Shown here: piece by piece, positions 29 to 50,178 of the stretch
Position numbering within the stretch: the first letter of the stretch is position 1
Layout: every line of letters starts with the position of its first letter
From: Candidatus Izemoplasmatales bacterium
GTDB lineage: Bacteria; Bacillota_I; Bacilli_A; Izemoplasmatales; Hujiaoplasmataceae
Assembly (NCBI GenBank): GCA_028698875.1
Contig: JAQVVR010000001.1
Coordinates: 186,001-250,000 of the forward strand
Direction: 5' to 3'
DNA length: 64,000 nt
Notes under the pieces: model-generated
The model's input: only the letters and a program-made list of their open reading frames with translations
What the model was told of the DNA's origin: nothing
Databases searched by the model: none
Position numbers and translations under genes: made by a program

Positions 29-952
29 ATGAATAAAATGATTCTTCATGATTCAGCCAAAAATAACATTCATGTTTATCTGTATGAACCAACCAGCAAG
101 CCATATAAAGGTGTTGTACAAATTATACACGGTGCTAGCGAACACTTTGCTAGATATGGCCTCTTCGCTGAATTTTTGACTACAAATGGTTACGCGGTTA
201 TTGGTTCTGATATCCTTGGGCATGGCCTTTCTACTACTACTAATGATTATGTCCACTTCGCTGACAAAAACGGGGCTGATCTCGCCTTTGAATCAGTTAC
301 TATGGTCAAAGACACCATTGCGGCAATGTTTCCAGGAATCCCTGTATTTTTACTTGGTCATAGCATGGGATCATTCCTAGCTCGGAAAATGATTATCATG
401 TTTCCCAACTTTTATCAAAAAGCTGTAATTTCCGGTACCACTTTCACTCCAAAAATGACTACTTCCATGGGAATGATGCTTTGCAATATTATTAAAGCTT
501 TTTATGGACCCAAGCATATTTCACCGATGATCCAAAAAATGGCAATTGATTCCTGCCCGGCTAAGTTGCGCAAAGATGGTATTATAAAAGATCGTGATGT
601 TGAGTGGCTAACCAAAAATGTCGATATTCAGAATTATTACCACGATTCATTGATGTGTGGTCAGCCTTTTACGGTTTCGGCTAATTGCGATATGTTCAGT
701 TGGATGGCTTTTGATGACAAACTGGATAATATTCGCCTAGGCAATAAAGAAATGCCTTTATATTTTATGTCAGGAGCCAATGATCCTCTAAGTAACTATG
801 GTGTTCAAGTGACCAAATTAGTCCATATCTTCCAAAATATGGGATATAAAAATATTACCTTTAAATTGTATGAAAACGATCGACACGAAGTTTTAAATGA
901 ACTCGATAACCAAGTGGCATACCAGGACATTTTAGCATTCTTTAAAAAGTAA
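29..952 (+). CDS. alpha/beta hydrolase, monoacylglycerol lipase-like
   Basis: A 307-residue serine hydrolase of the lysophospholipase/monoglyceride lipase (Hydrolase_4) type, probably cytoplasmic and acting on monoacylglycerols or lysophospholipids. The nucleophile elbow GHSMG places Ser112. The acid is probably Asp252 (SGANDPLS) and the base His286 (NDRHE). An early HG (residues 34-35) supplies the oxyanion region, followed by DILGHG at 61-66. There is no signal peptide. The start follows a purine-rich AGAGATGAAAAA. The gene is convergent with radC and ends in a shared hairpin terminator. The fold and triad are clear, but the substrate is only inferred from the family. Confidence 0.85.
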   Translation: MNKMILHDSAKNNIHVYLYEPTSKPYKGVVQIIHGASEHFARYGLFAEFLTTNGYAVIGSDILGHGLSTTTNDYVHFADKNGADLAFESVTMVKDTIAAMFPGIPVFLLGHSMGSFLARKMIIMFPNFYQKAVISGTTFTPKMTTSMGMMLCNIIKAFYGPKHISPMIQKMAIDSCPAKLRKDGIIKDRDVEWLTKNVDIQNYYHDSLMCGQPFTVSANCDMFSWMAFDDKLDNIRLGNKEMPLYFMSGANDPLSNYGVQVTKLVHIFQNMGYKNITFKLYENDRHEVLNELDNQVAYQDILAFFKK

Positions 953-980
953 GGCGGATTATTTTCCGCCTTTTTTTTTG
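950..980 (+). terminator. Rho-independent terminator after the hydrolase gene, shared with radC
   Basis: The stem GGCGGA/TCCGCC with an ATTATT-type loop is followed by nine T residues on the plus strand. On the minus strand the same hairpin forms the last codons of radC and is followed by TTACTTTT, so it may work in both directions. Confidence 0.85.
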
Positions 981-1645
981 ATATAGTCGTTGATTGACAC
1001 AAATCTGTTTTTACCGATAATAACATGATCGACAACTTTAATTTGCATCATCGTACCCGCCTCACATATCAACTCAGTCACATCGAGATCCTGTTGCGAA
1101 GGTTCTGGATCGCCGGAGGGGTGGTTATGGACCAAAATCACCGAATATGCCGAATACTTGACAGCGTACTTAAAGATTTCTCGTGGATGAATTAGTGATT
1201 GATTTAGCCCGCCGACAAAGATTTGTTTTTTAGCGATTAATCGTCCTTTTAAATCTAAATATATTGCCATCATTACTTCTTGTTTCAAACCTGCCATTTC
1301 ATCCTTTACAAGATTAAATACTTCAGCGGGTGTTGATATAATCATCATCTGCTTTTCATCCTTTAATGCGCGCTTTCCTAGTTCAAGCGCAGCTAACAAA
1401 GTAATCGCTTTTGCTTTGCCGACACCACGAAAACGTGACAATTCCGCAATGGTTTTATCTTGCAATCCTGATGCCTCTTTAATATCAAAAATGATGTCTT
1501 GGGCAATTTCAATTGCGGAGGCGGAAGTCGTTCCTGTATGCAAAATAATCGCGATTAATTCACAAGTTGATAATGATGAAGCTCCATACTTTTCTAATCG
1601 TTCTCTCGGACGTTCTGCTATTGGCATTTCCTTAATTAAATACAT
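959..1645 (-). CDS. radC: RadC family JAB/MPN-domain protein
   Basis: A 228-residue RadC (YsxA) protein. The N-terminal half has the helix-hairpin-helix-like region (SRFRGVGKAKA). The C-terminal half is a JAB1/MPN metalloprotease-like fold with the metal signature HNHPSGDPEPS (about residues 168-178) and an upstream conserved glutamate. The family is annotated as DNA repair, but its biochemical role is unsettled. The ATG at 1645 is preferred over the GTG at 1654 because AAGGTGAT lies just upstream. It is the last gene of the Val T-box operon and follows folC across a perfect 18-bp hairpin. Its final codons overlap the convergent terminator. Confidence 0.92.
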   Translation of the reverse strand: MYLIKEMPIAERPRERLEKYGASSLSTCELIAIILHTGTTSASAIEIAQDIIFDIKEASGLQDKTIAELSRFRGVGKAKAITLLAALELGKRALKDEKQMMIISTPAEVFNLVKDEMAGLKQEVMMAIYLDLKGRLIAKKQIFVGGLNQSLIHPREIFKYAVKYSAYSVILVHNHPSGDPEPSQQDLDVTELICEAGTMMQIKVVDHVIIGKNRFVSINDYIKKKGGK

Positions 1646-1655
1646 ATTTATCACC

Positions 1656-1695
1656 TTAATAAAAGCATCGCGAATAATCGCGATGCTTTTATTAA
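1656..1695 (-). terminator. perfect 18-bp inverted repeat between folC and radC
   Basis: The arms at 1656-1673 and 1678-1695 are exact complements with the four-base loop ATAA. The repeat contains the folC stop codon and lies directly before the radC ribosome-binding site. On the minus strand the 3' arm ends in TTTTATTAA, so it may act as a terminator or attenuator, or as an RNA processing or stability element that lowers radC expression. Confidence 0.7.
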
Positions 1696-2954
1696 TTAGT
1701 AATAACTTTTCGAATCTCCGATATTAAATACAAGGAACCAGAAACTAAAAGCACTTCATTGGTTTTTAGTTTTCTTAACTCCCTAAAAGCTTCCAATACA
1801 TTGTCATCTTGATACTTATGAGGATGCTGACTAGTTTCATATAAAACAGAAGCTTCAGCGCAACGATGATAATCGATTTGCGTCAAATGGAGTTCATCGA
1901 CGAATTCGGCGAGTTTTGTTAGTACCGTTGCATAATCTTTATCTTTCATCATTGTAAACAAACACTTAACGTATTTGCCGGGATAAACAGCGTTTATAGT
2001 CGCTTTAACTGTCGCGATTGCCCCTGGATTGTGACCACCATCTAAAATAATCCGATGTTCAAAAATTTCAAATCGCCCCGGCCATGTGGTACGGTATATT
2101 CCATCATATATATTACGTTGATCAATGGTGATTTTCTGCATTTTTTGCATAATAAGAATGGCTTCAATCGCCAAAGCCGCATTTTTCACTTGGTGCATGC
2201 CAGTCAATCGCGATAAGTAAGGGCGATCACGGTACCAAAAAGCTGTCATTTCTCCAACTTGAATGTCAATAATTTTACTGGTATCAACGCGGATTAATGG
2301 TGAAAGATGCGCTTGAGTTTCCGTTTCAAATTGTTTGATTAAATCAAGATTATCTTCAGCGGTGACCAGCGGAACACCACGTTTGACAATTCCTAATTTG
2401 TTGGCCGCGATGCTTTCTAACGTATTTCCCAGTTGTTTCATGTGATCAAAGGAAATGTTGGTAATACATGACACTTCCGGAACAATAACGTTGGTAGCGT
2501 CAAGTAACCCCCCGATGCCAACTTCAATGACGGCAAAATCGACCTTTTGGTCGCGGAAGTATAGAAATGCCATTAATGTCAAGATTTCAAAAAATGTGAT
2601 TGAGTCATTGTTCTCTTCAAATATTCTGTTCCACATCGTTTTAAGCGTGTTGGCATACTGGATAAAGATTGTATCCGAAATTTGTTCATCGTTAATCGAG
2701 ATGCGTTCATTGATACATATGACATACGGAGAGGTAAACAAGCCGACTTTATAGCCCGCCTCTTGTAAGATATTCTTAATGTAATTGGCTGTCGACCCTT
2801 TTCCGTTAGTCCCTCCCACGTGGATAGAACGAAACGTTTGTTGGGGACGATTAAAAAGATCGCAGACGTAGTTCATGCGAGTTAGATCGGTCTTTTCAGT
2901 GAAGCGTTTAGCATGTTCGATCCAATCGACTGCTTCCGCCATGGTAGTAAACAT
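1692..2954 (-). CDS. folC: folylpolyglutamate synthase / dihydrofolate synthase
   Basis: A 420-residue Mur-ligase-family enzyme that adds glutamate to folates (and possibly to dihydropteroate) using ATP. The P-loop HVGGTNGKGST is at about residues 41-51. The family signature region VIEVGIGGLLDATN follows at about 140-153, and FDHMKQLG at about 169-176 matches the conserved metal-binding stretch. The C-terminal domain carries LDGGHNPGA. The start codon directly abuts the valS stop (TAAATG); an alternative ATG lies four codons later. It is co-transcribed with valS. Confidence 0.93.
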   Translation of the reverse strand: MFTTMAEAVDWIEHAKRFTEKTDLTRMNYVCDLFNRPQQTFRSIHVGGTNGKGSTANYIKNILQEAGYKVGLFTSPYVICINERISINDEQISDTIFIQYANTLKTMWNRIFEENNDSITFFEILTLMAFLYFRDQKVDFAVIEVGIGGLLDATNVIVPEVSCITNISFDHMKQLGNTLESIAANKLGIVKRGVPLVTAEDNLDLIKQFETETQAHLSPLIRVDTSKIIDIQVGEMTAFWYRDRPYLSRLTGMHQVKNAALAIEAILIMQKMQKITIDQRNIYDGIYRTTWPGRFEIFEHRIILDGGHNPGAIATVKATINAVYPGKYVKCLFTMMKDKDYATVLTKLAEFVDELHLTQIDYHRCAEASVLYETSQHPHKYQDDNVLEAFRELRKLKTNEVLLVSGSLYLISEIRKVITN

Positions 2955-5537
2955 TTATTGTCTCAAGGCCTCGATTCTCACTTTTGTTTGCCGATAGTTT
3001 TCTTCATAGTCGGCTTTTTTCTTTTGTTCATCGGCAATTTTCTCTGCCGGCGCTTTAGCTAAAAAGTTTTGATTACTCATCAACATTTCACTGCGTTTTA
3101 TTTCTTTTTCAAGGCGAGTTAATTCTTGCTCCAAACGTAATAACTCTGCTTTTATATCAATCAAACTTCCTAAAGGTAGATATACAATTGCCTGAGGTAA
3201 GATAATTGACAATGCTTGATCCACAGGGTCAAGATTGTCAGTAATTATAAGTTGTTGTGGATTGATAAATTTTTCGATATAAACACGATTATCGTTCAGG
3301 AAACATGCTGTTTCTTGACTATCTGTTTTAATGAAAACATCGATTCCTTTTTGATAGGGAACACTATATTCATTGCGAATCTGACGTAAACGACGGATAA
3401 TTTCAAATAGTGTTTCCATGCGCTCGCTTTCTAAGAAAGCAATACCGTTGTTAGATGGCCATAATGCACGCATAATCGAGCCTTCATTACCAGGCAATCG
3501 TTGATATATATCCTCGGTAACGAAGGGCATAAAAGGATGTAAAAGCTTGATAATTGCCGACAAAACGGTGATTAACGTCGCTTTTGTCATCACGGCATCA
3601 CTATTAAGTTTAGCCATTTCAAGATACCAGGAAGCAAAGTCATTCCATGTAAAATTATAAATACAATGGGCTGCCTCACCAAAATCATATTTATCGAAGA
3701 ACAGATCGGCTTGGGAAATTGTTTCATTCAACCGGCCAATAATCCATCGATCCGCAGATGTCATCATTTCTGGATCAATATGTAATTGATTGACATCAAT
3801 ATCTTCAGTACTCATCAAAACATAACGACTGATATTCCAAAGTTTGTTAATGAAGTTCCAACTCGACTCAACTTTTTCTTGTTCATACCGTAAATCAAAT
3901 CCGGGTCCAGAATTGGTGGAGATAAAATACCGAAGACTATCAGCTCCAAATTGCTCGATAATGTCGTTTGGATCAATGCCATTGCCTAATGATTTCGACA
4001 TTTTTTTGCCTTCATTATCACGGATTAAGCCATGAATCATACAATCTTTGAAGGGAGAAACTCCGGTAAATTTAAGGGATTGGAAAATCATTCGCGAAAC
4101 CCAAAAAAAGATAATATCGTAACCGGTTACTAAGACATCAGTGGGGAAATAACGCTGGAAATCAGCTGTCTTTTGTGGCCAGCCAAGCGTAGAAAAGGGC
4201 CATAATGCTGATGAAAACCAAGTGTCTAGAACATCTTCATCTTGAATCCAGCCTTCACCTTTGGGAGCACAAATACCACAATATATTTCTTTGTCCTTGT
4301 ACCATACCGGAATTCGATGACCCCACCAAAGTTGTCGGGAAATGCACCAATCTTCAATGTTTTCCATCCAGTTCTTAAAAATCTTTTCAAATCGTTCGGG
4401 TATAAATTGAGCAGTATTATTGGCAATTGCATATTTTGCTAAGGGCTCCATTTTAACAAACCATTGTTTCGACAAACGTGGTTCAATTATAACTCCCGTT
4501 CGCTCACTATGGCCAACACTATGAACAATTGGCTCTGTTTTAACGATTAAGCCTAACTCCTGCAAATCTTTTAGTACTTGTTGACGACAAACAAATCGGT
4601 CAAGGCCAATGTAAGCTTTTGCCATCTCGTTCATGGTTCCATCTTCGTTCATGCATAATGGCATAGGCAAATGATGACGCTTCCCAACTTCAAAATCGTT
4701 AGGATCATGAGCTGGAGTTACTTTAACTGCCCCAGTACCAAATGTTTGATCAACATATCCGTCAAGAATAATCGGAATGTCGCGTTTAGTTGTCGGAATA
4801 TAAACACGTTTGCCATGAACTGGGAAATAGCGTTCATCATCGGGATGGACCATTATTGCGACGTCACCAAACATTGTTTCGGGTCTGGTTGTCGCTACCG
4901 TAACACCTCCATTTCCATCAGTAAATGGATAGGTAATATAGTATAAAGCCCCCTCGACATCAAGATGTTCGATTTCGATGTTTGATAATGCCGTTTTGGC
5001 CTGAGTGTCCCAGTTAATAATCCGTTTCCCTCGGTAAATCAATCCATCGTTATATAACTTAACAAACACTTCATTTACTGCCTCAGACAAACCCTTATCT
5101 AGCGTAAAGCGTTCATGTTTATAGTCAACAGACAAGCCAATTGCTTTCCATTGAGAACGAATTAAATCGGCATATTCAGCTTTCCAACTCCAAGCAACTT
5201 CAAGATATTTTTCGCGACCTAAATCGTAGCGACTGATTCCTTGAGATCGCAATTTCTGATCAACTTTGGCTTGTGTTGCAATACCGGCATGATCCATACC
5301 TGGCAAATAAAGAGCATCATATCCTTGCATCCGTTTTCGCCTGATGATAATATCTTGTAAGGTTGTATCCCACGTATGTCCAAGATGCAGTTTTCCAGTG
5401 ATATTAGGCGGTGGAATGACAACAGTAAATGGTTTTTTTGTCGTGTCACCAGCATCAAAACAGTCATTTTCGAGCCAATATTCATATTTTCCGCTTTCTA
5501 TTTGATGATGATCATATTTTGGATTCATCTTAATCAT
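2955..5537 (-). CDS. valS: valyl-tRNA synthetase
   Basis: An 860-residue class I aminoacyl-tRNA synthetase charging tRNA-Val. The HIGH motif appears as KLHLGH in PPPNITGKLHLGHTWD, and the KMSKS loop as GKKMSKSLGNG. The connective-peptide editing domain includes TTRPETMFGD. The C-terminal about 60 residues form the ValS coiled coil that contacts tRNA. The start ATG at 5537 follows GGGGAG; it overlaps the last 8 nt of the upstream NUDIX gene, suggesting translational coupling. The T-box leader at 6030-6249 has a GUC (Val) specifier, so expression should respond to uncharged tRNA-Val. Confidence 0.97.
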   Translation of the reverse strand: MIKMNPKYDHHQIESGKYEYWLENDCFDAGDTTKKPFTVVIPPPNITGKLHLGHTWDTTLQDIIIRRKRMQGYDALYLPGMDHAGIATQAKVDQKLRSQGISRYDLGREKYLEVAWSWKAEYADLIRSQWKAIGLSVDYKHERFTLDKGLSEAVNEVFVKLYNDGLIYRGKRIINWDTQAKTALSNIEIEHLDVEGALYYITYPFTDGNGGVTVATTRPETMFGDVAIMVHPDDERYFPVHGKRVYIPTTKRDIPIILDGYVDQTFGTGAVKVTPAHDPNDFEVGKRHHLPMPLCMNEDGTMNEMAKAYIGLDRFVCRQQVLKDLQELGLIVKTEPIVHSVGHSERTGVIIEPRLSKQWFVKMEPLAKYAIANNTAQFIPERFEKIFKNWMENIEDWCISRQLWWGHRIPVWYKDKEIYCGICAPKGEGWIQDEDVLDTWFSSALWPFSTLGWPQKTADFQRYFPTDVLVTGYDIIFFWVSRMIFQSLKFTGVSPFKDCMIHGLIRDNEGKKMSKSLGNGIDPNDIIEQFGADSLRYFISTNSGPGFDLRYEQEKVESSWNFINKLWNISRYVLMSTEDIDVNQLHIDPEMMTSADRWIIGRLNETISQADLFFDKYDFGEAAHCIYNFTWNDFASWYLEMAKLNSDAVMTKATLITVLSAIIKLLHPFMPFVTEDIYQRLPGNEGSIMRALWPSNNGIAFLESERMETLFEIIRRLRQIRNEYSVPYQKGIDVFIKTDSQETACFLNDNRVYIEKFINPQQLIITDNLDPVDQALSIILPQAIVYLPLGSLIDIKAELLRLEQELTRLEKEIKRSEMLMSNQNFLAKAPAEKIADEQKKKADYEENYRQTKVRIEALRQ

Positions 5538-6015
5538 GATATTCTCTCCCCTCAATAAGGTTCCTTTTTCCCGAGTAATACGCTTGAATCATTTGCACAT
5601 TGTCAATTGAATGAATTTCCGGAAGTTCATCTTTTCCGAAATAACGTAATTCTAACGATTCTAAATCGTTGACTCTCAGGTCTCCGCTGATAATTTTGGC
5701 AACAAAGGAAAAGCAGATAACTTGAGCTTCGTCAGCTACTCGCCAACGCATATTTGGGTTTATGAAAACACCAATAAAATCGCATGGTTCAACATCAAGG
5801 TTTGTTTCTTCTTTAACTTCACGAATCATCGTCTTGACAATCGATTCATCAAGTTCCATAAGACCTCCAGGTAATCCCCACTTATGGTTATCACAACGCT
5901 TTTGTAAAAGTATTTCCTTTTTATCATTGACAATCACTGCACATGCAGCATTTAGAATAATTTTAGCATTGCCAACTTTTGAACGAATAAATGTAATATA
6001 ATCACGATTTTCCAT
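5530..6015 (-). CDS. NUDIX hydrolase inside the valS T-box operon
   Basis: A 161-residue NUDIX pyrophosphohydrolase. The Nudix box begins GGLMELDES and continues to REVKEETNL, matching GX5EX7REUXEEXGU except that the late Gly is Asn (KEETNLD), a tolerated variation. Related Bacilli proteins are annotated as ADP-ribose or nucleoside-diphosphate-X hydrolases; the substrate is not readable here. The ATG at 6015 is chosen because GGAGG lies 5 nt upstream. An apparent start at 6060 would fall inside the T-box terminator. It is the first gene after the leader and overlaps valS by 8 nt, so it is presumably controlled by Val-tRNA charging. Confidence 0.88.
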   Translation of the reverse strand: MENRDYITFIRSKVGNAKIILNAACAVIVNDKKEILLQKRCDNHKWGLPGGLMELDESIVKTMIREVKEETNLDVEPCDFIGVFINPNMRWRVADEAQVICFSFVAKIISGDLRVNDLESLELRYFGKDELPEIHSIDNVQMIQAYYSGKRNLIEGREYHD

Positions 6016-25108: not shown

Positions 25109-26149
25109 TTATAAATGGTTTTGCGGCATGATAAACATCGCATCACCAAATGAGAAAAAGCGATACTTCTCTTTAATAGCCACCGAATATGCGTTCATAA
25201 TTATCGGTTTTGAGGCAAAAGCCGATACCAGCATTAACAAGGTTGATTTTGGCAAATGAAAGTTGGTTATTAAACCATCAATAGCGTTAAATTTGTATCC
25301 CGGATAGATAAATATATCGGTCCATCCGCTACTTTTCACAAAAGAGTTATTTTGTTTATATATTGTTTCTAGTGTTCGTGTTGAAGTGGTTCCAATTGCG
25401 ATAATGTTGCGATTTTCCAGTCGTGCAAGATTTAATGCATCAGCGGTTTCTTGTGACATTTGGAAGTATTCTGAGTGCATTTTATGCAAAGCGACATCTT
25501 CTACTGAAACGGGACGAAATGTCCCTAGTCCTACGTGTAATGTTATCGGGTAGACCAATACCCCTTTTTCCTTGATTTTAGCGATTAATTGGTCAGTAAA
25601 ATGCAATCCTGCTGTTGGCGCAGCAGCACTGCCAGAGATTTGGGAATAAACTGTCTGGTAACGACTTTGATCGATCAATTTTTCGTGAATATAAGGCGGC
25701 AGTGGCATCTCACCAAGGTGCTCGAGTAATTCCAAAAATATGCCTTGATAGGAAAAATCAAAATTGCATAGCCCATCTTCACCGCGAGTTGTACATTTTG
25801 CTTGTAACAGACCATCACCAAAATCGACAACGGATCCAACTTTGACTCGTCTAGCCGGTTTGGCAATGGTTTCCCAACAGTCATCTTTTATCTGTCGGAG
25901 TAACAGTATTTCAATCACTGCTTTGGTATCTTGCTTGATACCCGTTAGCCTTGCCGGCAACACTTTAGTATCGTTAATAACTAAAACATCACCCTTTTTT
26001 AGATAATTTGGCAAATTATAAAAATGATCATGGTTAATTTCAAAATTATCGCGACCACAAACTAGCAGTCGCGAAGATGATCTTTCCAGTAAAGGAGTCT
26101 GGGCAATTAATTCTTCTGGTAGCAAATAATCAAAATCAGTTGTTTTCAT
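25109..26149 (-). CDS. queA: S-adenosylmethionine:tRNA ribosyltransferase-isomerase
   Basis: A 346-residue QueA that transfers the ribosyl part of SAM to preQ1-tRNA, giving epoxyqueuosine. Diagnostic stretches are [15 protein letters not shown] at 6-20, [15 protein letters not shown] at 54-68, [14 protein letters not shown] near 173-186 and [10 protein letters not shown]. It starts two bases after the ruvB stop. The ruvB-queA-tgt order is Bacillus-like apart from the inserted pduL. Confidence 0.96.
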
Positions 26150-26150
26150 A

Positions 26151-27155
26151 TTAGAATAACGATCCTTGGTAACCTTTTTTAAGGTGTTGATAAGCCAAAT
26201 CGGTTGCGACTCGCCCTCGCGGAGTACGACTAATAAAGCCCTTTTGAATCAAATATGGTTCATAAACGTCTTCCAAAGTCAAAGCATCCTCACTGATGGA
26301 AGTGGCAATAGTTTCCAAACCAACCGGCCCACCATGATACTTTTCAATGATGACTGCGAGATATTCCCGATCTTTACGATCCAATCCCGAAGCATCAATT
26401 TTAAGTTTTTCCAAAGCCGTTTGGGTAATAGGAAGTGTAATGACTCCATCGGCAAGAATGTCAGCATAATCACGAACTCGACGGAAAAGGCGATTGACGA
26501 TTCTTGGCGTGCCTCGGCTCCGTTTCGCTAATTCAACGATTGCTGTTTCACAGATTTCACAATTGTATATCGAAGCGGTTCTGCGACAGATAGTCTCCAG
26601 ATCACTATCGGAGTAAAATTCTAATTTATGGACAATACCGAACCGATCACGAAGTGGTCCGGTGAGATCGCCAAAGCGAGTTGTGGCCCCAATTAAGGTG
26701 AATGGTGGCAAATCAACGCGAATTGATTTGGCCCCATTATCTTTACCTACAACAATATCAATGACAAAATCTTCCATGGAGGAATACAATATTTCTTCGA
26801 CAATCTTTGGTAATCTATGGATTTCATCAATGAAAAGAACGTCACCAGGCTCAAGCGAGGTTAAAATCGCTGCTAAATCACCGGTACGCTCAATGGTTGG
26901 CCCACTAATTGTTCGCATATTGACTCCCAGTTCATTAGCAATGACCTGAGCTAAAGTCGTTTTCCCTAAGCCGGGAGGGCCATAAAACAAGACATGATCT
27001 AGAGATTCTTGACGTTTTTTGGCAGCGCCAACGGCAATTTGCATCATCTCTTTGACACTTGTTTGACCGATGTACTCCGCAAAGACTTGAGGTCGTAAAG
27101 TGACTTCAATTTCATCGTCAACTAATAGATTGTTACTAATAATCCGTTTATCCAT
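26151..27155 (-). CDS. ruvB: Holliday junction branch-migration ATPase RuvB
   Basis: A 334-residue AAA+ motor of the RuvAB complex. Walker A is GPPGLGKTT (about residues 60-68), Walker B is LFIDEIHRL, sensor 1 is GATTR, and the arginine-finger region is GPLRDRFG; the C-terminal winged helix ends in [13 protein letters not shown]. It is first in its operon behind GAGGTG and a -10 TATAAT at 27180-27175. ruvA, usually directly upstream, is absent; the divergent coiled-coil genes occupy that side. Confidence 0.96.
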
Positions 27156-27224: not shown

Positions 27225-27253
27225 TTGAAATATGATTTTGGTTAGATTATAAT
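27225..27253 (+). promoter_or_regulatory. promoter of the giant coiled-coil operon
   Basis: The -35 is TTGAAA (27225-27230), the spacer exactly 17 bp, and the -10 TATAAT (27248-27253). RNA would start near 27260, about 25 nt before the first ATG. It is back to back with the ruvB promoter region. Confidence 0.88.
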
Positions 27254-27284
27254 GTTAATATAGTCGTTTTATAGGGTGGTAAAA

Positions 27285-30200
27285 ATGCCAGAAAAACGCG
27301 AAAACAAGTTATATTCCCTTAAACAAGTCGCTTTGGATGTTTCTAGTCATGATACTAATCTGGCAAACATCGAAACCGCAATCGGGGAAATCCACACCAA
27401 CTATAATTCTGAAATCGCAAAAATCGAAGAAAACTTCGATGTTTTTGGCTTGGAAAATCAAAAAACATACGAACGATATGAAGCTGATTTCACTCGGGTA
27501 TTAGAATATATCGATCAAGAATACTTTGGCTTATTTAAAGCACTAGACGAAGATTTTGTTGCTCATCGCCAAAAATTAGAAAGTCAATTGGCAGCTGAAG
27601 ACGAACAATATCAGAAAATCGTCAAGGCATTTGAGGATTTAGAAAACGATGCTTATTCCACCTACAAGACATTATGTCAAGAATCCGAAGCGGCAATTAA
27701 TAAGGAAACTGAAATTCACCAACGGTTTGTGGATGAACAAACTTCAAATTTTGAAGCGATAAAAGATAAATATAATTTTATAAACAATAATCAATATGAT
27801 AAATTGCTATGGACAATGGAGAAATCCAAAAACGCGCTTAATCAATTGTCTAAACAACTCAACGAGCAAGCCTTTAATGATACCAAGTATATGAATCAAA
27901 CCGTTTTAAACATTATTGAACAATTACGGGACACAAAAAACAAGATTACCGCTTTATTTAAAACCACTACTCAAGCTTTTACCATCAAAAAGGATCGTAT
28001 TGATGAACTCAGTACAATTCGTCAAATTCCCTATTCGGAAATTAATCAAACACTAATTGATCAATATGTCCGTCAAATCACTTCTGTAAACCAAAAAAAG
28101 ATCGCGTTCGATAAATTGGTTAATGAAGATTATCTCAAATCATCAATGATTGTTGGTAAGCGAATAATCGACGCAGACAGCAAAAAAAATCAAAGATTGA
28201 CCAAAAAGTTCATTATGCAATACGGCATCATCAAAGCAAAAAGCAATTACTTGCTGAAGCGCAACCAGCAATTAAGCGACTTATTGATTTCTAAATACCA
28301 AAATGAAATTCGCAAAATCAAGGTTGATTCATTTAAACGAGTTGAAGAGATCAAACTTGCCTATTCATTACCAAGTCATTTTTTTCAAAATTCGATCAAT
28401 CTTTATAGTAATTTTGCTTTTTATGTATCCGAGTCTTTAGACGAACTAGATAACATGCTTTCTGATCTTCTTCGGTTCAATCAGAATATCACCCAAACCT
28501 TTGTGGATTATATGACCAGTAGCACAAAAGCATTTGAAGATTATAAGATAAACTGTCAGGTCACTGTAAATAATATCACTTCTAAAATGACTGACCTGTT
28601 AACAAATATCAATCGTTTTAGCAAAGACATAGTATCACTTGAATCTAAAAACCGGTTGGAAATTGCCGACATTAAAAAGCAAATGGAAAACGCAGATATC
28701 ACTGGTGATTATCAAAAATATCTTGCCACGCTTAACAATGACCGATCCGTGACTGATTTTCAACATACGGTAAATATCAAAAAAACGCAAGTATATGCTG
28801 ATGGTGAGGCCAGTTTGCTTGTCATTCAACGTGAAGTGACCGAGCGCAATCGCCAACGTCAGATTGATCAAGCCGCTTTAAAACATGAGCGACTAATCAA
28901 CAATTTAGAAAAAGACATTCATGATTTGGCATATGATAAGGAACTGGCCATTTGCGAAGCAAGATATCGCCGTGATTTAGCTTTAATCGATCAAGAGCAA
29001 AAACAAACACTGGAAAATGAAGCTTTTTTCAGGGCCAGTCAACAAGATTTTCTGTGGCAAACCCTACAAAAACAATTGGCTGAATATGAACACAATAAAG
29101 CCGTAGGTAGCGACTACGTCGTTGATTTTGTTCATCAAACGCAAAAAATTATTGATGTTGAAAAGTCGAAAACATTAGCGACACAAGCTTATTTACTTGG
29201 TTCAAAACTCCCTTATGCCTATGCTTATCATCTTGAATTGGAACGCGAGGAAGTTAAAAAACATCTCCTTTACCGTACTAGTCAAAAAACGGAGCCATAT
29301 GAAAAAGCAATTCAATATTTTGACCATCTTTTATTTGTGAATCGCAAAAATATCATCAAACAAATCGGTCGATATTCATTATATCTTAAGCACTTGTTGG
29401 CTAATTTGTCAGATGCAAATGCCCCCATTCAAGCCGAATCTCTCTCTTTAGAACATTTTTATCGTTACGAAGTTCTTTCTGTTATCCGCAACAGCCGTGA
29501 AACCGTATCATCGTTGATATCGCCAGAAAAAAACGCTGATTTACTTACTAAAGCAGACAAGTTATTCGATGATGATTTTAAACGAGTCGCTATCTTAACG
29601 ACTTCAGCAGAAAAAAAATGTCTTATGAATGTTAAATCCATAAAGGGGTTAAGAAAATCACTTTTAGGTTACTATGTTGAGATGATTCTCCTTTTAGATG
29701 CATTCTTAGAGCATGTTTACATAATATTAGATGAATTGGAAGAATGCTTAATCAAAAATGATGTTTTAACAGTTAAAAAATATCAAGATGAAATGAACCG
29801 GAAAAAATTAATGATTGACATGGAATACGATTTAGCTGTCTTCTACGCTGGCAAACAGAAAACTAAAGCGGATAAAGCTATTATCATTGTCAATTCGGAG
29901 TGCAAAGCAGTTGAAAACAGGCTGGCAGCACGTGTTTATCAGTTAAATAAAACCTATATCGATGGACTTAAGGAACAAGAAAATTTTATTGATTATTTGG
30001 ATCAAGAACTTTCCCGTGAATACAAAAAGCAGGTTCATTCCAAGACTATTGATTTAAAACAAGAACTTTCCACATTCAAAAAACAAAAACAAACACTTGA
30101 TAATAATCAAAAACGTTATATTTATGCTTACGAAGTTATGAAAAAACAAAATTATTCGCTGGTAGAGCAAGCAAATAAGCGTGCTATGGCCAATCTCGAT

Positions 30201-30746
30201 ATGCAGGATAAACAACGAGCAGAGGGTTTGATTACACTCAACCAGACAATCGAAACATTACCGAAAAAGAATGATCAGATGGTCTCAAGTCTTGAATTAC
30301 AAAAGGAACAATTCGTCAAAAGTCATTCGATGTCTTTAACGCATGAACTCGCTCATATTGAAGAACAAAAATTTATCTCTCGACCAGCATTTTTAACAAA
30401 AATCGCCGAGATTAGGGATCGACTCCCACAAGATTACATGACGTTATACAAGCAAATTGCTATCGCCCAAACTACTTTTGTTAAGCAATATCCTGATGCT
30501 CATGATTTGTATTCTATGGAGTATAATCGTTTTCTCAATAGCCAAACCGAATATAATAATATTTTATTTAATGATTCCATCATACTTCATCCGTTTGAAA
30601 AATATCTTCATGTTTCTGATCGAATCAAGATCAAAACCGATGAAGTCTTCCAAGATACGGTGAAAAAATCAGCTGCTAGGCTTGATGAAATAAAGAAACA
30701 AGCCATCGAATCCGAAGAAAATCAAAAACGCATCATTAATGCCTAA
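27285..30746 (+). CDS. giant coiled-coil protein 1 (1153 residues), function unknown
   Basis: A protein dominated by Glu, Lys, Gln, Leu and Ile in heptad-like spacing from about residue 20 to the end, with scattered Tyr and Phe; breaks occur near 370-400 and 690-720. There is no signal peptide, membrane helix, Walker motif, nuclease motif or sorting signal, so it should be a long cytoplasmic rod. The ATG at 27285 is chosen because AGGGTGG lies five bases upstream; an in-frame GTG at 27276 is part of that SD. It has its own strong promoter and is followed after 16 bp by a second protein of the same kind. A segment near 503-575 aligns locally with residues about 560-620 of the partner. A cytoskeletal or chromosome-organising role is possible but unproven. 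Confidence 0.85.
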   Translation: MPEKRENKLYSLKQVALDVSSHDTNLANIETAIGEIHTNYNSEIAKIEENFDVFGLENQKTYERYEADFTRVLEYIDQEYFGLFKALDEDFVAHRQKLESQLAAEDEQYQKIVKAFEDLENDAYSTYKTLCQESEAAINKETEIHQRFVDEQTSNFEAIKDKYNFINNNQYDKLLWTMEKSKNALNQLSKQLNEQAFNDTKYMNQTVLNIIEQLRDTKNKITALFKTTTQAFTIKKDRIDELSTIRQIPYSEINQTLIDQYVRQITSVNQKKIAFDKLVNEDYLKSSMIVGKRIIDADSKKNQRLTKKFIMQYGIIKAKSNYLLKRNQQLSDLLISKYQNEIRKIKVDSFKRVEEIKLAYSLPSHFFQNSINLYSNFAFYVSESLDELDNMLSDLLRFNQNITQTFVDYMTSSTKAFEDYKINCQVTVNNITSKMTDLLTNINRFSKDIVSLESKNRLEIADIKKQMENADITGDYQKYLATLNNDRSVTDFQHTVNIKKTQVYADGEASLLVIQREVTERNRQRQIDQAALKHERLINNLEKDIHDLAYDKELAICEARYRRDLALIDQEQKQTLENEAFFRASQQDFLWQTLQKQLAEYEHNKAVGSDYVVDFVHQTQKIIDVEKSKTLATQAYLLGSKLPYAYAYHLELEREEVKKHLLYRTSQKTEPYEKAIQYFDHLLFVNRKNIIKQIGRYSLYLKHLLANLSDANAPIQAESLSLEHFYRYEVLSVIRNSRETVSSLISPEKNADLLTKADKLFDDDFKRVAILTTSAEKKCLMNVKSIKGLRKSLLGYYVEMILLLDAFLEHVYIILDELEECLIKNDVLTVKKYQDEMNRKKLMIDMEYDLAVFYAGKQKTKADKAIIIVNSECKAVENRLAARVYQLNKTYIDGLKEQENFIDYLDQELSREYKKQVHSKTIDLKQELSTFKKQKQTLDNNQKRYIYAYEVMKKQNYSLVEQANKRAMANLDMQDKQRAEGLITLNQTIETLPKKNDQMVSSLELQKEQFVKSHSMSLTHELAHIEEQKFISRPAFLTKIAEIRDRLPQDYMTLYKQIAIAQTTFVKQYPDAHDLYSMEYNRFLNSQTEYNNILFNDSIILHPFEKYLHVSDRIKIKTDEVFQDTVKKSAARLDEIKKQAIESEENQKRIINA

Positions 30747-30762
30747 ACCGGAGGGGAAAACC

Positions 30763-33708
30763 GTGGCCGAACAAAACAAAAATCATCCCATAGCCGATTT
30801 AACTAGCGGAAAATCTGTTCTTCAAAGAGAAATCAAACAAGGCTATGCCCAAGAGATTTCCCTTTATGAGGATTTTTTTGACAAGGTCACACAACATGCA
30901 AAAACACATCGTCAAATTTCAATCAACAATTTAAAAGAATCCGAAAAAAGGCTTCATCAGCTGAAAACCAACGCCGAGAAGATAGCTGACTCAATTTTTT
31001 ATCATGATGAAGAAATTGTTGTTCAACGTTCGCGAATTATCAGTGAAACCGAAGATCTCGTTCGAGTTCAAAATGAAGATATCCTCCATCACGATCGCCT
31101 GAGTTTCGATGACACAATTCAGGCCATAGATTATCTCGCAAAGGCTTTAATGCAAGTTAAATATGATTTCATAGGTTTTTATTCTCGTAGTCATCTCAAT
31201 TCAATCCTTTCGACTGAAGATTTTTTTGACTATTATATGCAAAAAAGTCATGCATTTCAAGTTATCTTGGATCGGCATCAAAATGAAGTATATGAATTAT
31301 TCGTTAAACTTGATGAGCAAATCAAGTCTATGGATGATGCCATAGGCAATATTATCCAATCTAAAAACCGAAAAGTAACCGATATTGAAACTTTTTATGA
31401 CAAAGAAGCTCATCATTTTGCCGATAATCAGTTGTCTTTTTCCGCCGAATCCGATCCGACTTCAATTGAAATTCAAGCTCTTGCCAGTGACAAAATCAAC
31501 CAATATAAGGCTTTTTGCGATCATTCCATCCATCAAAATATGAAAATTCAAAAAGTATTGGAAGACGATTACTTGACCTTATATCAACGCGTCTTGGGAC
31601 GTTTATTACAAAGCCGTTCTTACCAAATAATCAATCGTTTTGATCTGTTTGATGACCCCTTGCGCTTCAAGATTGAATATAAGCAAAAACTCCTTGACGC
31701 TGAAGCAAAGGGATCAAAGGAATTACGAAGTTTACTGCGAATCTACCAAAAGATTTGTCGTTGGCAAAAGGATGTTCGCTCAGCGGAAACAAGAGCTACT
31801 ATGATGTTAAAAACTCAAGCCAAGCGCAAAGAAACGCTTCTTAAACTTTCTGAAGAAACCTCAGTTATACAAATGAATCGCCTTGAACTTTATCTCAACG
31901 AGTACCTTGAAGTAATGAAGTTTGATCCGTTTCTCGCCCAGGCAATTGGTGATTATTCGTCAAAAATCATTAAGGATGAACTAGCTCGCCTTTCCCTTCT
32001 AAAACTTAACAAAGAACTAAAAACCAATATCGATTACGATATTCAAGCGACCAAGATTAAAAGTCAGATAAACGAATTAGAAATAATTATGATGAACTCA
32101 ATAAAAAAGCATTTATACCTTCAGGAAGGCGAATTGCTTAGTGAGTTAAATAAAATCCCCTTGTTCTTACTCGAAAAACGGCATCAACTGATTTCTTCTA
32201 GTTTAGCAATTCTGCGTGAACGTCATCTGATTGAACGTTTGGATAAAGCCACAAATGAGCATTTAGCATATCTATTAGTAAGTGGTAATACTAGTCGCAG
32301 ATGGATCTCGATTGTCTCCGATGAACTAATTAGTAATACCCGTGATAAAGAAACTCATAATATTTATGTCGTGGAAGCAAAATCAGAAATTGAATTGGCA
32401 TTAAAACAATATGATATAAGCGCCATTCATATTCAAACAATGTATGAAAACGAAAAATCATATTTGGTAATGCAAAAAAGTCGTGTGGATGAAGAAACCA
32501 AGATAAATAACGATTTCATCTTGACGACGTATTTAAATCAAATGCGCTTTGCACAAGAACAAATTGCTTTAGCCGAATCCGAATACCGAGTACGTCTAGA
32601 ATCCTTAATGGTAACTATCGATCAAGAACGCAAGTTTTATAATGATCAAATCAACTTGGTTCATGTTAAATATGACCAAAATGTTCGTCTTATTGAAGAT
32701 GCATATCAAGCCAAATTATATTCTGAATCTCATAAAATTGCGGAAACCGTCGACAAAAAAGCACAAAAAGCTTTAGCGATTTCCTTAGAGAAAGATCGCC
32801 GCATCCGTGACCAGCAAGTAAATGTGCTTGTTAAGAGTCTGGCAGGCGATGAAGTCATCATTAAATCGCAAAACCAACTTCGTTCAATTGATGATCAACT
32901 CCAAGAAGCCATTCATGACGCTGATGTTTTACGGGAAGCGACGATTCGGGAATTCACTGAACTATACGAACATGCCAAATCCCGTTATGAAATACTAAAA
33001 CCTTATATGGATAATGCCATAAATATTCTTGACCCGACCTTTTATGATGGCTTGGCCGCTATCAACGAGCGTTATCATGCCAAAATCCATGAAGCTGAGT
33101 CGGAGCTCGATCGTAAAATTGAGAAACTTTTACCCCAATACCGCGAAGTATTCTTTACTCAAGATGTTGAAGACCATTCATTAGATTACCGAGCACGTAT
33201 CGAAGAAATAATGATGGAAAGGGAAACCAATGAAGCCGTTTACCAGCAAAAATTGCAAGCCGTTGAAAATCATTACCGGCAAGAATTAACTATGATTGAT
33301 GCCGAAGAAGAAAGTTCTAAAAGCGCATATAAAGTTGAAATTGATACAATTCACAACAAAGAAGTCGCTACTTCCGCTCAATTTGCGCAAATGGCAAAAA
33401 CGATTGATGCCGAAGGTGATGCAAAAATCAAAGCGCATCGAGAAGCCACGTTATCGACGATTAATCAATTAACAGATGAATATTTCATATCGCTTAAAGC
33501 TTCTAAAAAAACGATTGCCGATTTGTCCGATGATTTTCAAAAACTTCTTGATGGTTACCAAGATTATCTAGGTTTTTCCGAGGGCGAAAAAAAATATCGT
33601 TACGTTCTGAAATCCATCAAGAAAGCTAACCGCAAGAAACTTCATAATTCCTTAAAACAACTAAAGATAAAATATCGTCATTATCACATCTTTAATCAAA
33701 AAAATTAA
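30763..33708 (+). CDS. giant coiled-coil protein 2 (981 residues), function unknown
   Basis: A second long coiled-coil protein with no signal peptide, membrane segment or catalytic motif. The GTG at 30763 is the probable start: GGAGGGG lies six bases upstream, whereas the in-frame ATG at 30739 lies inside the end of the previous gene and has no SD. The rod covers most of the length, with a Pro/Asp break around residue 750 (NILDPTFYDGL). The last about 35 residues are strongly basic (KSIKKANRKK and following), a candidate nucleic-acid or membrane contact. Segments like YENEKSYLVMQ (about 561-571) resemble YADGEASLLVIQ in the partner. It ends at its own terminator. Confidence 0.83.
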   Translation: MAEQNKNHPIADLTSGKSVLQREIKQGYAQEISLYEDFFDKVTQHAKTHRQISINNLKESEKRLHQLKTNAEKIADSIFYHDEEIVVQRSRIISETEDLVRVQNEDILHHDRLSFDDTIQAIDYLAKALMQVKYDFIGFYSRSHLNSILSTEDFFDYYMQKSHAFQVILDRHQNEVYELFVKLDEQIKSMDDAIGNIIQSKNRKVTDIETFYDKEAHHFADNQLSFSAESDPTSIEIQALASDKINQYKAFCDHSIHQNMKIQKVLEDDYLTLYQRVLGRLLQSRSYQIINRFDLFDDPLRFKIEYKQKLLDAEAKGSKELRSLLRIYQKICRWQKDVRSAETRATMMLKTQAKRKETLLKLSEETSVIQMNRLELYLNEYLEVMKFDPFLAQAIGDYSSKIIKDELARLSLLKLNKELKTNIDYDIQATKIKSQINELEIIMMNSIKKHLYLQEGELLSELNKIPLFLLEKRHQLISSSLAILRERHLIERLDKATNEHLAYLLVSGNTSRRWISIVSDELISNTRDKETHNIYVVEAKSEIELALKQYDISAIHIQTMYENEKSYLVMQKSRVDEETKINNDFILTTYLNQMRFAQEQIALAESEYRVRLESLMVTIDQERKFYNDQINLVHVKYDQNVRLIEDAYQAKLYSESHKIAETVDKKAQKALAISLEKDRRIRDQQVNVLVKSLAGDEVIIKSQNQLRSIDDQLQEAIHDADVLREATIREFTELYEHAKSRYEILKPYMDNAINILDPTFYDGLAAINERYHAKIHEAESELDRKIEKLLPQYREVFFTQDVEDHSLDYRARIEEIMMERETNEAVYQQKLQAVENHYRQELTMIDAEEESSKSAYKVEIDTIHNKEVATSAQFAQMAKTIDAEGDAKIKAHREATLSTINQLTDEYFISLKASKKTIADLSDDFQKLLDGYQDYLGFSEGEKKYRYVLKSIKKANRKKLHNSLKQLKIKYRHYHIFNQKN

Positions 33709-33714
33709 CGATAA

Positions 33715-33747
33715 CCAACCCGGTTCGAACTTCGAACCGGGTTTTAT
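33715..33747 (+). terminator. terminator of the coiled-coil operon
   Basis: AACCCGGTTCGAA pairs with TTCGAACCGGGTT (13 bp, C in the loop region), followed by TTTATATT. There is no T-run on the other strand, so it serves the plus-strand operon only. Confidence 0.85.
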
Positions 33748-33791: not shown

Positions 33792-34970
33792 TTATTTAAT
33801 GATTCGTAATAAGCTCTTTCCGTATTCAGGGCAGGCAACATTAAAGTTATCGGCAATTGTGGCTCCAATATCAGCGAATGAATCCGAGATTGGTAACATT
33901 CCTCCATTAAGCAATTTATTATATATGAAAAGCGGTACATACTCACGAGTATGGTCTGTACCAAAAAAGGTCGGATCATTACCATGATCGGCAGTAATCA
34001 TTAACAAATCATCATCCCGAAGGCATGGTAAAAGTGTACCCAAATCAACATCAAATTCCGTAAGCGCTTTTTTATATCCAAACGCATCACGGCGATGACC
34101 ATACATCGCATCAAAATCGACTAAATTAACAAAACACAGGCCAGTGAAATTGCCTTTAGCGATGGCAATGGTTGTTTCCATGCCATTGTGATTAGATATG
34201 ATTCCATGATGATCAGTAATTCCTGATCCGTTAAAAATATCCCGGATTTTACCAACAGATATTACATCATAATGTGATTCGGCTAATGAATCTAAAACCG
34301 TCTTTCCCGAAGGATTAAGCGCATAATCATGACGATTTGGCGTCCGTTTGAAACCATTGACAGGATCACCAATAAAAGGTCTGGCAATGATTCGGCCAAC
34401 TTTCCAAGCCTCTTTCATCGTTATCTCGCGGGCAATGTGACAAATTTGATATAGTTCTGCTAAGGGAATGATGGCTTCATGAGCCGCAATTTGTAATACC
34501 GAGTCGGCTGAGGTATACACAATCAACTCGCCAGTTTCCATCTGCCGGGGTCCTAATTCAACCAGTATTTCGGTCCCTGATGCGGATTTATTCCCTATTA
34601 TTTTCCTGCCGGTCTTCTGCTCTAATTCCGTAATAAGTGCTTGGGGAAAGCCGGTATCAGTAAAGGTTTTAAAAGGGACAACCGTTTTGAGTCCCATCAT
34701 TTCCCAATGGCCAGTCATCGTGTCTTTCCCGTTAGAAAGTTCTTTCATCTTTGTGGTATTGGCACGTGGTCGTTCCGTTGGCGAAACACCTTGAATGTAA
34801 GTTAAATTGCCATAACCAAAAGACTCTAAATTAGGCATAAAGATACCACCGGTTGCTTCTGCTAAATGCGAAATCGTGTTAGCACCGACATCACCATATT
34901 GGGCTGCGTCTGGTAATTCACCAGCACCAACGCTGTCCATAACAATTAAAAAGACGCGTTTGTATTTCAT
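33792..34970 (-). CDS. deoB: phosphopentomutase
   Basis: A 392-residue Mn2+-dependent mutase of the alkaline phosphatase superfamily that converts (deoxy)ribose-1-phosphate to the 5-phosphate, linking DeoD to DeoC. Metal and catalytic motifs are present: [13 protein letters not shown] at 10-22, the phospho-acceptor threonine in [16 protein letters not shown], and [10 protein letters not shown] with DHTREYVPL near the end. It directly follows xerD (as in Bacillus xerD-drm) rather than deoC-deoD, which lie 20 kb away. A terminator follows. Confidence 0.96.
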
Positions 34971-34972
34971 AT

Positions 34973-35881
34973 CTATTCCTTCTTTCCTAAGGCCCGTGGA
35001 TGGGCGGCTTCATAAGCTGCTTGTAAATGCTTAGTTGAAATATGAGTATAATTCTCTGTAGTTAAAATATCTTCGTGACCAAGAAGTTCTTGAACCGCAC
35101 GCAAGTCAGCTCCATTTTCTAATAAATGGGTGGCAAATGAGTGCCTTAGCGTATGCGGGGAAATGGATTTATCAATATGGGCTTTTACCGCTAAGTTTTG
35201 GATGATTTTGTAAAATCCCACACGGCTGATTCGAGTTCCGCTTTTATTAACAAATAATATTTCCTTATTAGTTGGATGAATAAGCGGTCTGGCATCAGTT
35301 AAATACTTGCGTAAAGCGATAATAGCATTTTCGCCTAACGGAACAATTCGTTCTTTGTTACCTTTGCCAAGTACTTTGATAAAACCCATATTAAGATGCA
35401 AGTCAGCCACATCAAGATCAATTAATTCTGAAACCCGCAGACCAGATCCATAGGCCAGTTCAATCATAGCCACATTTCGTAAATCCAAAATTGATTTTGC
35501 ACCTATGGCGGTTGTTAGTAAAGCTTCGATTTCTTCGATATTTAAAACAACCGGCAAATGTTTTTGCGTTTTTGGCAAAGGCAAACTTTTAACAACATTG
35601 CCATCGACCAGTTTTTCTGTTTGCAGATATTGATGAAATGATTTTATTGATGAAATTTTACGAGAAATACTTTTTACGGCTAATTCCGCTCGTTTTAAAT
35701 GGGCAAGATAATTTACTATATGGGTTCTTTCAATACGATCTGGTTGTTTAATATGATAGTTTTTGTCAAGAAATTCTAGATAATCAGTAATATCATTTAC
35801 GTATGAAGAAATCGTATTTTTTGACAGATTCTTAGTGATTTTCAAATAATATAGATATTCTTTGAGTATGTTATCAAGCAT
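34973..35881 (-). CDS. xerD: tyrosine recombinase XerD-like
   Basis: A 302-residue integrase-family recombinase, probably resolving chromosome dimers at dif. The SAM-like core-binding domain covers about 1-90. The catalytic set is complete: Arg in GSGLRVSEL, Lys in [14 protein letters not shown] in [14 protein letters not shown], His in LGHEDILTT and Tyr in ENYTHIS. The ATG at 35881 follows GGGAGTGA and overlaps the hemW stop by 8 nt. Location before deoB favours XerD over a mobile-element integrase. No dif-like site was recognised in the window. Confidence 0.9.
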
Positions 35882-37007
35882 CAATATCACTCCCATCGAT
35901 AAAACTGGTTTCCACGCGATTCATAAGCATAATACCGCGATGGGTCAATCGTAACTTGCCATCAGAAAGCTCCAATAGGCCACTGGCGATGTTTATATTA
36001 AGAAGGGGATATCTAGTAAGGATATCGTATCCAAAACGATCATGAAATGCTTTAACGCTGATACCTTCAAGTAAACGTAAATTCATTAATCCGGTTTCTT
36101 GTGCAAGATTGCATGGATCGAAAGATTCAAGTCCGGTTCCGGTAGTTTTGACGGCTTTCATATATGCGGCCAAACGCGGGTAATTATGAAATCGTGTCAT
36201 CTCGACTTGAGAGTGAGCGCCCATACCAAGGCCTAAATATGGTTGGACTTTCCAGTATATCATATTATGCTTTGATTGAAAGTGGGTTTTGGAAAAATTG
36301 CTTATCTCATATTGAAAATATTGATGTTTTGGTAGTTCATTCATGACCAATTCAAACATATCCGCTTCAATGTCTTTGTCGATTGGGGTGATTTTTCCTA
36401 ATTTGATATCATGCATTATTTTCGTCTTTTCTTCCAAAATGAGCGAGTAAAACGATAAATGTTGGGGATTTACTGACACAGCAAAATCGATATCGGCCTG
36501 TAAGTCCGATAAAGTCTCTCCTGGAATACCATAAATAAAATCAAGGTTTATATTCAGGATTTCAGCTTCCTTCAAGACTTTTACCGCCTGAATAACGATG
36601 GCTTTTGTTTCGTGTCTACCGATACTTGTCTGTAATTGGGGATTGATAGTTTGAACCCCAACGCTGACACGCGATACATGATGGGACTTGATGAGTTTTA
36701 CAAAATCGGTGGTGATATCTTGGGGATTAGCTTCAATGGTATATTCTGTTATGTTAGTTATTCTCACCATTGATTCGATTTTTGATAACAAAATCGCCAG
36801 TGGTTTCAGTCCAATTGATGATGGAGTTCCCCCGCCAATATAAATGGTTTCTGTCGTGGCGATTTCCGCGCGGTAATAATCCATTTCATGACATAGTGTT
36901 TGGATATAATCGTCAATTTGATTACTGGCTCCCGCCAATTTGGGAAAATCACAATATGTACAGATTGTATTACAAAAGGGGATGTGGATGTAGAGCGCTT
37001 TTGCCAT
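35874..37007 (-). CDS. hemW: HemW-like radical SAM protein (heme chaperone family)
   Basis: A 377-residue radical SAM protein of the HemN/HemW branch. The cluster motif CNTICTYC (CX3CX2C, about residues 12-19) and YIGGGTPSSI at about 61-70 are diagnostic, with IYGIPGETL and SVGVQT further on. HemW binds heme and is not a coproporphyrinogen oxidase; the short length fits HemW. No heme synthesis genes are visible. The ATG at 37007 is preferred (GGTGAT upstream). It overlaps xerD. Confidence 0.92.
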   Translation of the reverse strand: MAKALYIHIPFCNTICTYCDFPKLAGASNQIDDYIQTLCHEMDYYRAEIATTETIYIGGGTPSSIGLKPLAILLSKIESMVRITNITEYTIEANPQDITTDFVKLIKSHHVSRVSVGVQTINPQLQTSIGRHETKAIVIQAVKVLKEAEILNINLDFIYGIPGETLSDLQADIDFAVSVNPQHLSFYSLILEEKTKIMHDIKLGKITPIDKDIEADMFELVMNELPKHQYFQYEISNFSKTHFQSKHNMIYWKVQPYLGLGMGAHSQVEMTRFHNYPRLAAYMKAVKTTGTGLESFDPCNLAQETGLMNLRLLEGISVKAFHDRFGYDILTRYPLLNINIASGLLELSDGKLRLTHRGIMLMNRVETSFIDGSDIDA

Positions 37008-49263: not shown

Positions 49264-50178
49264 TCAACTGGCCTTTTCAAATAAAGATTTGATTCGAGAA
49301 GGCAACTTCTTTATTGACTCGCCAATTACCGAAGGAAACAAAAGAATGGCTTCTCCAAAAGCATTTTTTCGGATTTGTTGTTTGGTTTGCCCTTTTAGGT
49401 TCATGAATAAATAGTTACGGCAAATGATTCCCACTCGTAACGATAACAAGGCATTTCCTGCTCCTTGAGCTAATGATCCGGTAATAATCTTTAAAAAGGG
49501 AATTTCATTCAGCACATTAAGACTTTGCGAAGGAAACAACTCATTAAAATTAATATCTTCTAAGGATTCAGCGATGATGGCCGATGACATGATATTGACT
49601 GAGAGTTTTCCTAACGAAGCATAACTGGGTCGAAAGCCGCATTTGATGACGAGTTCTTTGATTAATCGCAGATTGATTGTCAAAACTGCAATTAAATCTA
49701 ACCGTCCGTTTTGAGAAATGGCGGTAGATAAAAAAACAGTTTCGGCATGTTGAACAATGATTTTGTTTAGTTCTTTTTTGATTGTCTCGTCAAAGACTTT
49801 TCCCAGTGAATTTTTAAGTAGCATCGGATCGGATAAACTTTCTGATAGGGTTTGTTTTTCACCATCAGACAAGTATGATTCGGTAATCAGATTTTTTGCC
49901 ACCTTGTTGTACATCTGAAAATTGCGTTTTGCATTATCTTCTTCGCTAAACAATGAATCCATCGAAAACGTTGGCGAAAAGGAAACGATCATTACTGGAC
50001 GGATGATTAATAGAAAGAATAAGATGATTGCTACCACATAAAAGGCATATTCGACGTATGGTGAAAGCGACCGTAATCGTTCACCCAAATCCAAAACGCT
50101 ACTAATCAGAATTAAGATCAAAAATAGAAACGCTCCGATTCCTAACGTAATCCAAAATGCTTTACCGAGTTTTTTCAT
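49264..50178 (-). CDS. DUF697/YcjF-like membrane protein
   Basis: A 304-residue protein with two N-terminal transmembrane helices (about residues 9-28 and 43-63), then a soluble helical region and a DUF697-like C-terminal part: DLIAVLTINLRLIKEL around 167-182, followed by small-residue-rich hydrophobic helices (SLAQGAGNALLSLRVG at 246-261). DUF697 domains often accompany Era-like GTPases, but none is fused or adjacent. It overlaps ribF by 17 nt and is last in the mutS2 operon. Its function is unknown. Confidence 0.65.
   Translation of the reverse strand: MKKLGKAFWITLGIGAFLFLILILISSVLDLGERLRSLSPYVEYAFYVVAIILFFLLIIRPVMIVSFSPTFSMDSLFSEEDNAKRNFQMYNKVAKNLITESYLSDGEKQTLSESLSDPMLLKNSLGKVFDETIKKELNKIIVQHAETVFLSTAISQNGRLDLIAVLTINLRLIKELVIKCGFRPSYASLGKLSVNIMSSAIIAESLEDINFNELFPSQSLNVLNEIPFLKIITGSLAQGAGNALLSLRVGIICRNYLFMNLKGQTKQQIRKNAFGEAILLFPSVIGESIKKLPSRIKSLFEKAS

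Follow-up and report, generated by a model that had tools for sequence, protein, structure and literature searches.

A two-gene operon conserved beside ruvB in Izemoplasmatales encodes two large proteins predicted to be straight helical rods

Two large genes, here called P1 and P2, are conserved together beside ruvB across the Izemoplasmatales, in the family of the genome analysed (f1) and in an Izemoplasmataceae-like family (f3), and P2 is also recognisable in a third family (f2, g12). P1-P2 bears on the open question of how internal order is maintained in bacteria that have neither a wall nor MreB; the pair is order-wide, has a positional counterpart in Acholeplasma-type genomes, and makes the question directly testable in the cultured Xianfuyuplasma coldseepsis zrk13.

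The P1-P2 operon and its conservation

The window is a stretch of 64,000 nucleotides from a wall-less Izemoplasmatales bacterium. P1 and P2 are real genes arranged as a single operon, and the features of the region are as follows.

27225..27253, + strand: sigma-70 type promoter of the operon (TTGAAA-17-TATAAT), read from the sequence, position kept in f1
27273..27279, + strand: Shine-Dalgarno sequence of P1, agggtgg (tagggtgg), read from the sequence
27285..30746, + strand: P1, predicted all-helical rod protein of 1153 aa (1153 codons), ATG start
30750..30756, + strand: Shine-Dalgarno sequence of P2, ggagggg, directly after the P1 stop, read from the sequence
30763..33708, + strand: P2, predicted all-helical rod protein of 981 aa (981 codons), GTG start
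33529..33705, + strand: C-terminal polybasic tail of P2, residues ~923-981, from its net charge and a basic helix (943-973) in the model
33717..33743, + strand: strong intrinsic terminator with a 12-bp stem, detected on both strands
26151..27155, - strand: ruvB, divergent neighbour and syntenic anchor (Pfam RuvB_N/RuvB_C)
25109..26149, - strand: queA, adjoining ruvB in most loci (Pfam Queuosine_synth)
33792..34970, - strand: deoB-like metalloenzyme, convergent neighbour and syntenic anchor (Pfam Metalloenzyme; deoB is our reading of the sequence)
34973..35896, - strand: xerD-like tyrosine recombinase, syntenic anchor (Pfam Phage_integrase)

The two-gene unit of the preliminary description was borne out, with both reading frames, the 16-bp gap between them, the Shine-Dalgarno sequences, the promoter and the terminator all present. 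Both start codons were backed by alignment and by conserved Shine-Dalgarno sequences; the GTG of P2 coincided with the conserved start of its relatives, and an in-frame GTG at 27276 is a possible alternative start for P1. Purine runs resembling a Shine-Dalgarno sequence preceded P2 in most f1/f3 loci, and the distance from the P1 stop to the P2 start was -8 to +25 bp in the 18 f1/f3 loci measured. Eight of 9 f1 loci had a promoter of the same type at 29-31 bp before the P1 start; across all loci tested, 57% showed matches at ≥10 of 12 positions, compared with 9% of shuffled sequences. The conserved adjacency and spacing, together with the footprinted promoter, indicate matched production of P1 and P2.

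The preliminary description had named conservation of the pair in relatives as a check, and the survey found P1-P2 kept across the order. Among the 34 f1 genomes, 32 gave a match to P1 and 33 a match to P2, with nearly all frames open; in G015 a ruvB match of full strength was also missing, and in G018 the place of the pair fell between contigs. A P2 profile search recovered P2 from 26 sampled f3 genomes, while G053 and G060 of this family were missing both the pair and ruvB. Genome G055 encoded a single 702-aa rod-like protein poor in proline and glycine between deoB and ruvB instead of the pair (L126 7680-9788, - strand). The order ruvB-queA / P1-P2 / deoB-xerD was kept in nearly all of the 20 loci read; the ruvB-queA side was replaced in L061, a few genes were inserted ahead of deoB in L056, and L046 and L052 stopped inside the region. 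A pair divergent from ruvB, with products of 1145-1200 and ~920-990 aa, was found in 18 f1/f3 loci. The pair is encoded at the same locus in zrk13, whose cells are cultured wall-less cocci of 300-800 nm (PMC8397711).

Profile-profile comparisons (hhalign) were run beside reversed-sequence controls. P1 of f1 and f3 was homologous and co-linear (E 4e-13, reversed control 0.017), and P2 of the two families matched at E 1e-38. Within families, the values between P1 and P2 were weak and partly no better than the reversed controls, and the two were not accepted as paralogues. Profile searches with P1 and P2 found nothing in f2, where synteny revealed a pair near ruvB (931-965 and 1108-1114 aa). Both genes were present in G034 and G038, and the first gene plus a cut second gene in G036 and G040; these counts rest on the four genomes named, and three further f2 genomes gave no reading. 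The second gene of the f2 pair proved to be P2, matching P2 of f1 over 735 columns at E 3.5e-11, against 0.1 for the reversed control. In three f2 genomes, ruvB was separated from the rods by genes that, by eye, looked iron-sulfur, [FeFe]-hydrogenase- and NuoF-like (L128 7456-11657, - strand; L129, L131). Weak HMM matches of A2 outside the order were treated as chance coil matches.

Predicted structure of P1 and P2

AlphaFold2 models of P1 and P2 were essentially all helix at moderate confidence (pLDDT 69 and 76), with no globular domain predicted in either. The longest single helices in the models spanned 281, 277 and 273 residues, and one continuous helix was predicted at residues 389-661 of P2. 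Proline and glycine made up 2.3-2.6% of the two proteins versus a median of 9.7%, the lowest among the large ORFs of the window. The hydrophobic period was ~3.6 residues in both proteins of f1 and f3 (3.59-3.63; 3.62), with a peak 3.5-5.9 times the mean versus 1.4-1.5 times in the null, and the SMC-type control JetC from the same family gave 3.53. The data suggest that P1 and P2 are straight, hendecad-like rods and not heptad coils, so that the term heptad-rich in the preliminary description has to be withdrawn.

Length was tightly kept in P1 of f1: sequences with a mean identity of 31% opened 0.19 gaps per 100 aligned residues, and their lengths had an s.d. of 2.8 residues. The corresponding gap rate for XerD, at 64% identity, was 0.45. 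This near absence of indels implies that the register of the rod cannot shift. The most conserved stretch of P1 was residues ~301-500 (window 28185-28784), and that of P2 was ~548-611 (window ~32404-32595), with invariant columns at 548-611 and a peak at ~551-600.

The basic tail already noted in P2 proved real and conserved. Its last 60 residues carried a mean net charge of +11.1 in f1 and +12 in f3 and were net positive in all 31 f1/f3 P2 sequences examined, whereas none of 150 background proteins had a charge of +11; P1 had no comparable basic tail. The hydrophobic moment of the P2 tail was modest and its mean hydrophobicity close to zero. The tail was not clearly amphipathic, and it therefore does not tell membrane from DNA.

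As judged from sequence, P1 and P2 appear to belong to no described family, with no name and no recognised domain. Neither gave a match above chance in Pfam, NCBIfam, PHROGs, PADLOC or PDB sequences, including the SMC profiles of Pfam and NCBIfam and the defence models of PADLOC, which agrees with the earlier claim of novelty, for which homology to a known family had been set beforehand as the refuting test. In PHROGs, just two weak matches of unknown function were obtained. One f3 P1 gave a weak Apolipoprotein match in Pfam (E 8e-4, below the cut-off). The earlier statement that the products lack an enzyme motif and a membrane helix also stands: a motif check found no Walker A in P1 or P2, and no clear membrane helix was seen, the highest 19-residue Kyte-Doolittle means being 1.64 (P1, borderline) and 0.76 (P2). 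Foldseek searches against the PDB returned generic long coils alone, the best being MukB, condensin and Wadjet, and the TM-scores of about 0.05-0.17 mean nothing beyond long helices. A literature search found no paper that mentions the P1/P2 genes.

Single rods beside ruvAB in other families

Reading upstream of ruvB across the class, we found a single rod of ~1,000-1,240 aa divergent from ruvAB in 13 of 13 f12, 5 of 5 f16 (Acholeplasma-like) and 3 of 3 f22 genomes. A Pfam check of one f12 locus gave the order rplU-prp-...-obg-[rod]-ruvA-ruvB. These rods resembled P1 and P2 in locus, in composition and in the 3.62 period, and most had a basic C-terminal tail comparable to that of P2; unlike the Izemoplasmatales pair, each was encoded by one gene without an adjoining P2. 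The f12 and f16 rods were homologous to each other (E 2e-40). The f12 rod matched the f3 P1 profile at E 4.6e-10, but the reversed control reached 1.2e-5, a comparison that weakly supports a possible homology of the f12/f16 rods to P1; the f22 rods were not alignable. No comparable rod was seen at the ruvB locus in the sampled genomes of f4, f5, f7-f10, f13, f14 and f19-f21, and shorter ORFs poor in proline and glycine near ruvB in f5 and f18 showed no relation to the rods by profile. The window also encodes a DUF697 protein (49264-50178, - strand); in several f12/f16 genomes its relatives come after a radC-like gene close to the rplU/obg/rod locus.

The pair had been said to occupy the place where ruvA is often found. 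In the window's genome, ruvA (G000:C16:139799-139975) and ruvB (212154-213155) are ~72 kb apart, and the two are also separated in other Izemoplasmatales tested and adjacent in G147 and G206; the remark on location is partly right, the rod of Acholeplasma-type genomes diverging from an intact ruvA-ruvB. With some reserve, we consider it possible that these genes represent a previously undescribed cytoskeletal or nucleoid system, neither actin nor tubulin, of straight hendecad-like rods anchored by a polybasic tail, which would have arisen at the obg-ruvA locus in the ancestor of Acholeplasmatales and Izemoplasmatales and become two-protein in the latter.

Possible roles and closest known systems

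Our favoured, if tentative, reading is that P1 and P2 co-assemble into an internal rod scaffold with the P2 tail on an anionic surface, a membrane cortex being favoured over the nucleoid. Co-produced, length-constrained straight alpha-helical rods would co-assemble inside wall-less cells, packing side by side through the hendecad-like 3.62 periodicity; the conserved modules of P1 (~301-500) and P2 (~548-611) could serve as contact points, and the polybasic tail would attach the scaffold to an anionic surface, for which the cytoplasmic side of the membrane is the likeliest candidate. The co-assembly, contact points, membrane anchoring and a mechanical or shape function are inferred; the earlier suggestion of a rod scaffold in wall-poor cells agrees with the anatomy described above. 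Neither MreB nor a penicillin-binding protein was found in f1, which would leave a role there for a non-actin scaffold. Against the scaffold stands a codon bias of P1/P2 that is no more than moderately ribosome-like (77th-83rd percentile in the genome), a weak test of abundance.

The distribution of wall and MreB genes fits the scaffold less well. Penicillin-binding transpeptidases were absent from f1, f2, f3, f12, f16 and 2 of 3 f22 genomes tested, and the remaining f22 genome, G223, has penicillin-binding proteins together with a rod of 1067 aa where ruvA lies (L169 8652-11855, - strand). Rods are thus not limited to wall-less cells or simply a consequence of wall loss, and the earlier interpretation is supported in part. 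Conversely, of the other families without these proteins, f9 and f18 were read at the locus and show no comparable rod; f6 and f17 lack the proteins as well. The MreB profile gave only DnaK-length, modest-score matches in f1, f2, f12, f16 and f22, whereas three tandem true MreB paralogues were present in the f3 genomes G035, G041 and G045. The coexistence of rods and three MreBs in f3 counts against a scaffold and rules out MreB replacement as a complete explanation.

The P2 tail does not look like a typical membrane helix, and DNA is an equally plausible partner for it; the rods might instead organise the nucleoid, bridging or bundling DNA through the tail and perhaps offsetting the loss of canonical SMC-ScpAB. 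We regard this as rather unlikely, although canonical SMC (TIGR02168 cut-off) was absent in 16 of 16 rod carriers tested (f1, f2, f3, f12, f16, f22) and is kept by nine other families (f4, f6, f8, f10, f13, f14, f15, f17, f21). Sampled f5, f7, f9, f18 and f20 genomes also lack it and have no comparable rod, and the window's genome keeps an SMC-type, JetABC/MukBEF-like operon; SMC replacement was accordingly rejected as a complete explanation. The tail's lack of marked amphipathicity and the DNA-processing neighbours ruvB and xerD would suit a role on DNA, but these neighbours are encoded on the other strand, and P1-P2 has a separate promoter. The MukB, condensin and Wadjet coils at the top of the Foldseek results point the same way, yet their scores reflect no more than long helices, and P1 and P2 have no ATPase head. 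Rods cannot be predicted from wall loss or from SMC loss, and the family profiles are confounded by phylogeny. The JetA-JetB-JetC operon (L189, G000:C19:3000-9000; 4741-6000, 4139-4744 and 913-4155, all - strand) is Wadjet/MukBEF-like, and no JetD was recognised among the genes read beside it in this genome without canonical SMC; its role may be that of a chromosomal condensin in this lineage rather than one in defence. L190 and L191 contain SMC-type genes of about the same size, preceded by ORFs whose sizes also match.

It is very improbable that P1 and P2 are apolipoprotein-like amphipathic helices coating the inner membrane as monomers, not as rods. The 3.62 periodicity and the sub-threshold Apolipoprotein match would agree with such a coat, but the scarcity of indels in f1 P1 implies a fixed register between long helices, and 11-mer coat proteins (apolipoproteins, perilipins) usually vary in repeat number. 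Some other function in trafficking, adhesion, motility or as a phage-related part such as a tape measure is improbable given the fixed housekeeping synteny over the order; no phage structural or tail genes were recognised in the neighbourhood, and the tape measure itself was rejected for lack of a PHROG match.

Among known systems, the coils of SMC, MukB and Rad50 resemble P1/P2 in length class and long helices and were the top structural matches; P1/P2 differ in having no Walker A motif and no recognised head or hinge, neither heads, hinge nor arms were matched structurally, and the SMC-type control had the shorter period. HMW1/HMW2 of the Mycoplasma pneumoniae attachment organelle and Spiroplasma Fib are large scaffold proteins of wall-less bacteria, to which P1 and P2 showed no family match; f6 and f17, taken to be Mycoplasma-like, were absent from the matches of the P2 profile among 395 genomes of the class. 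Crescentin, FilP, Scy, CfpA and Ccrp are large cytoplasmic helix-dominated proteins without an enzyme domain, known or thought to build scaffolds. P1 and P2 share with them an alpha-helical rod make-up without a globular enzyme domain, as predicted from the models and a proline plus glycine content of 2.3%, and differ from them in lacking a Pfam or PDB match, in a period of 3.62 in place of the heptad 3.5, and in forming a lineage-restricted, two-gene operon.
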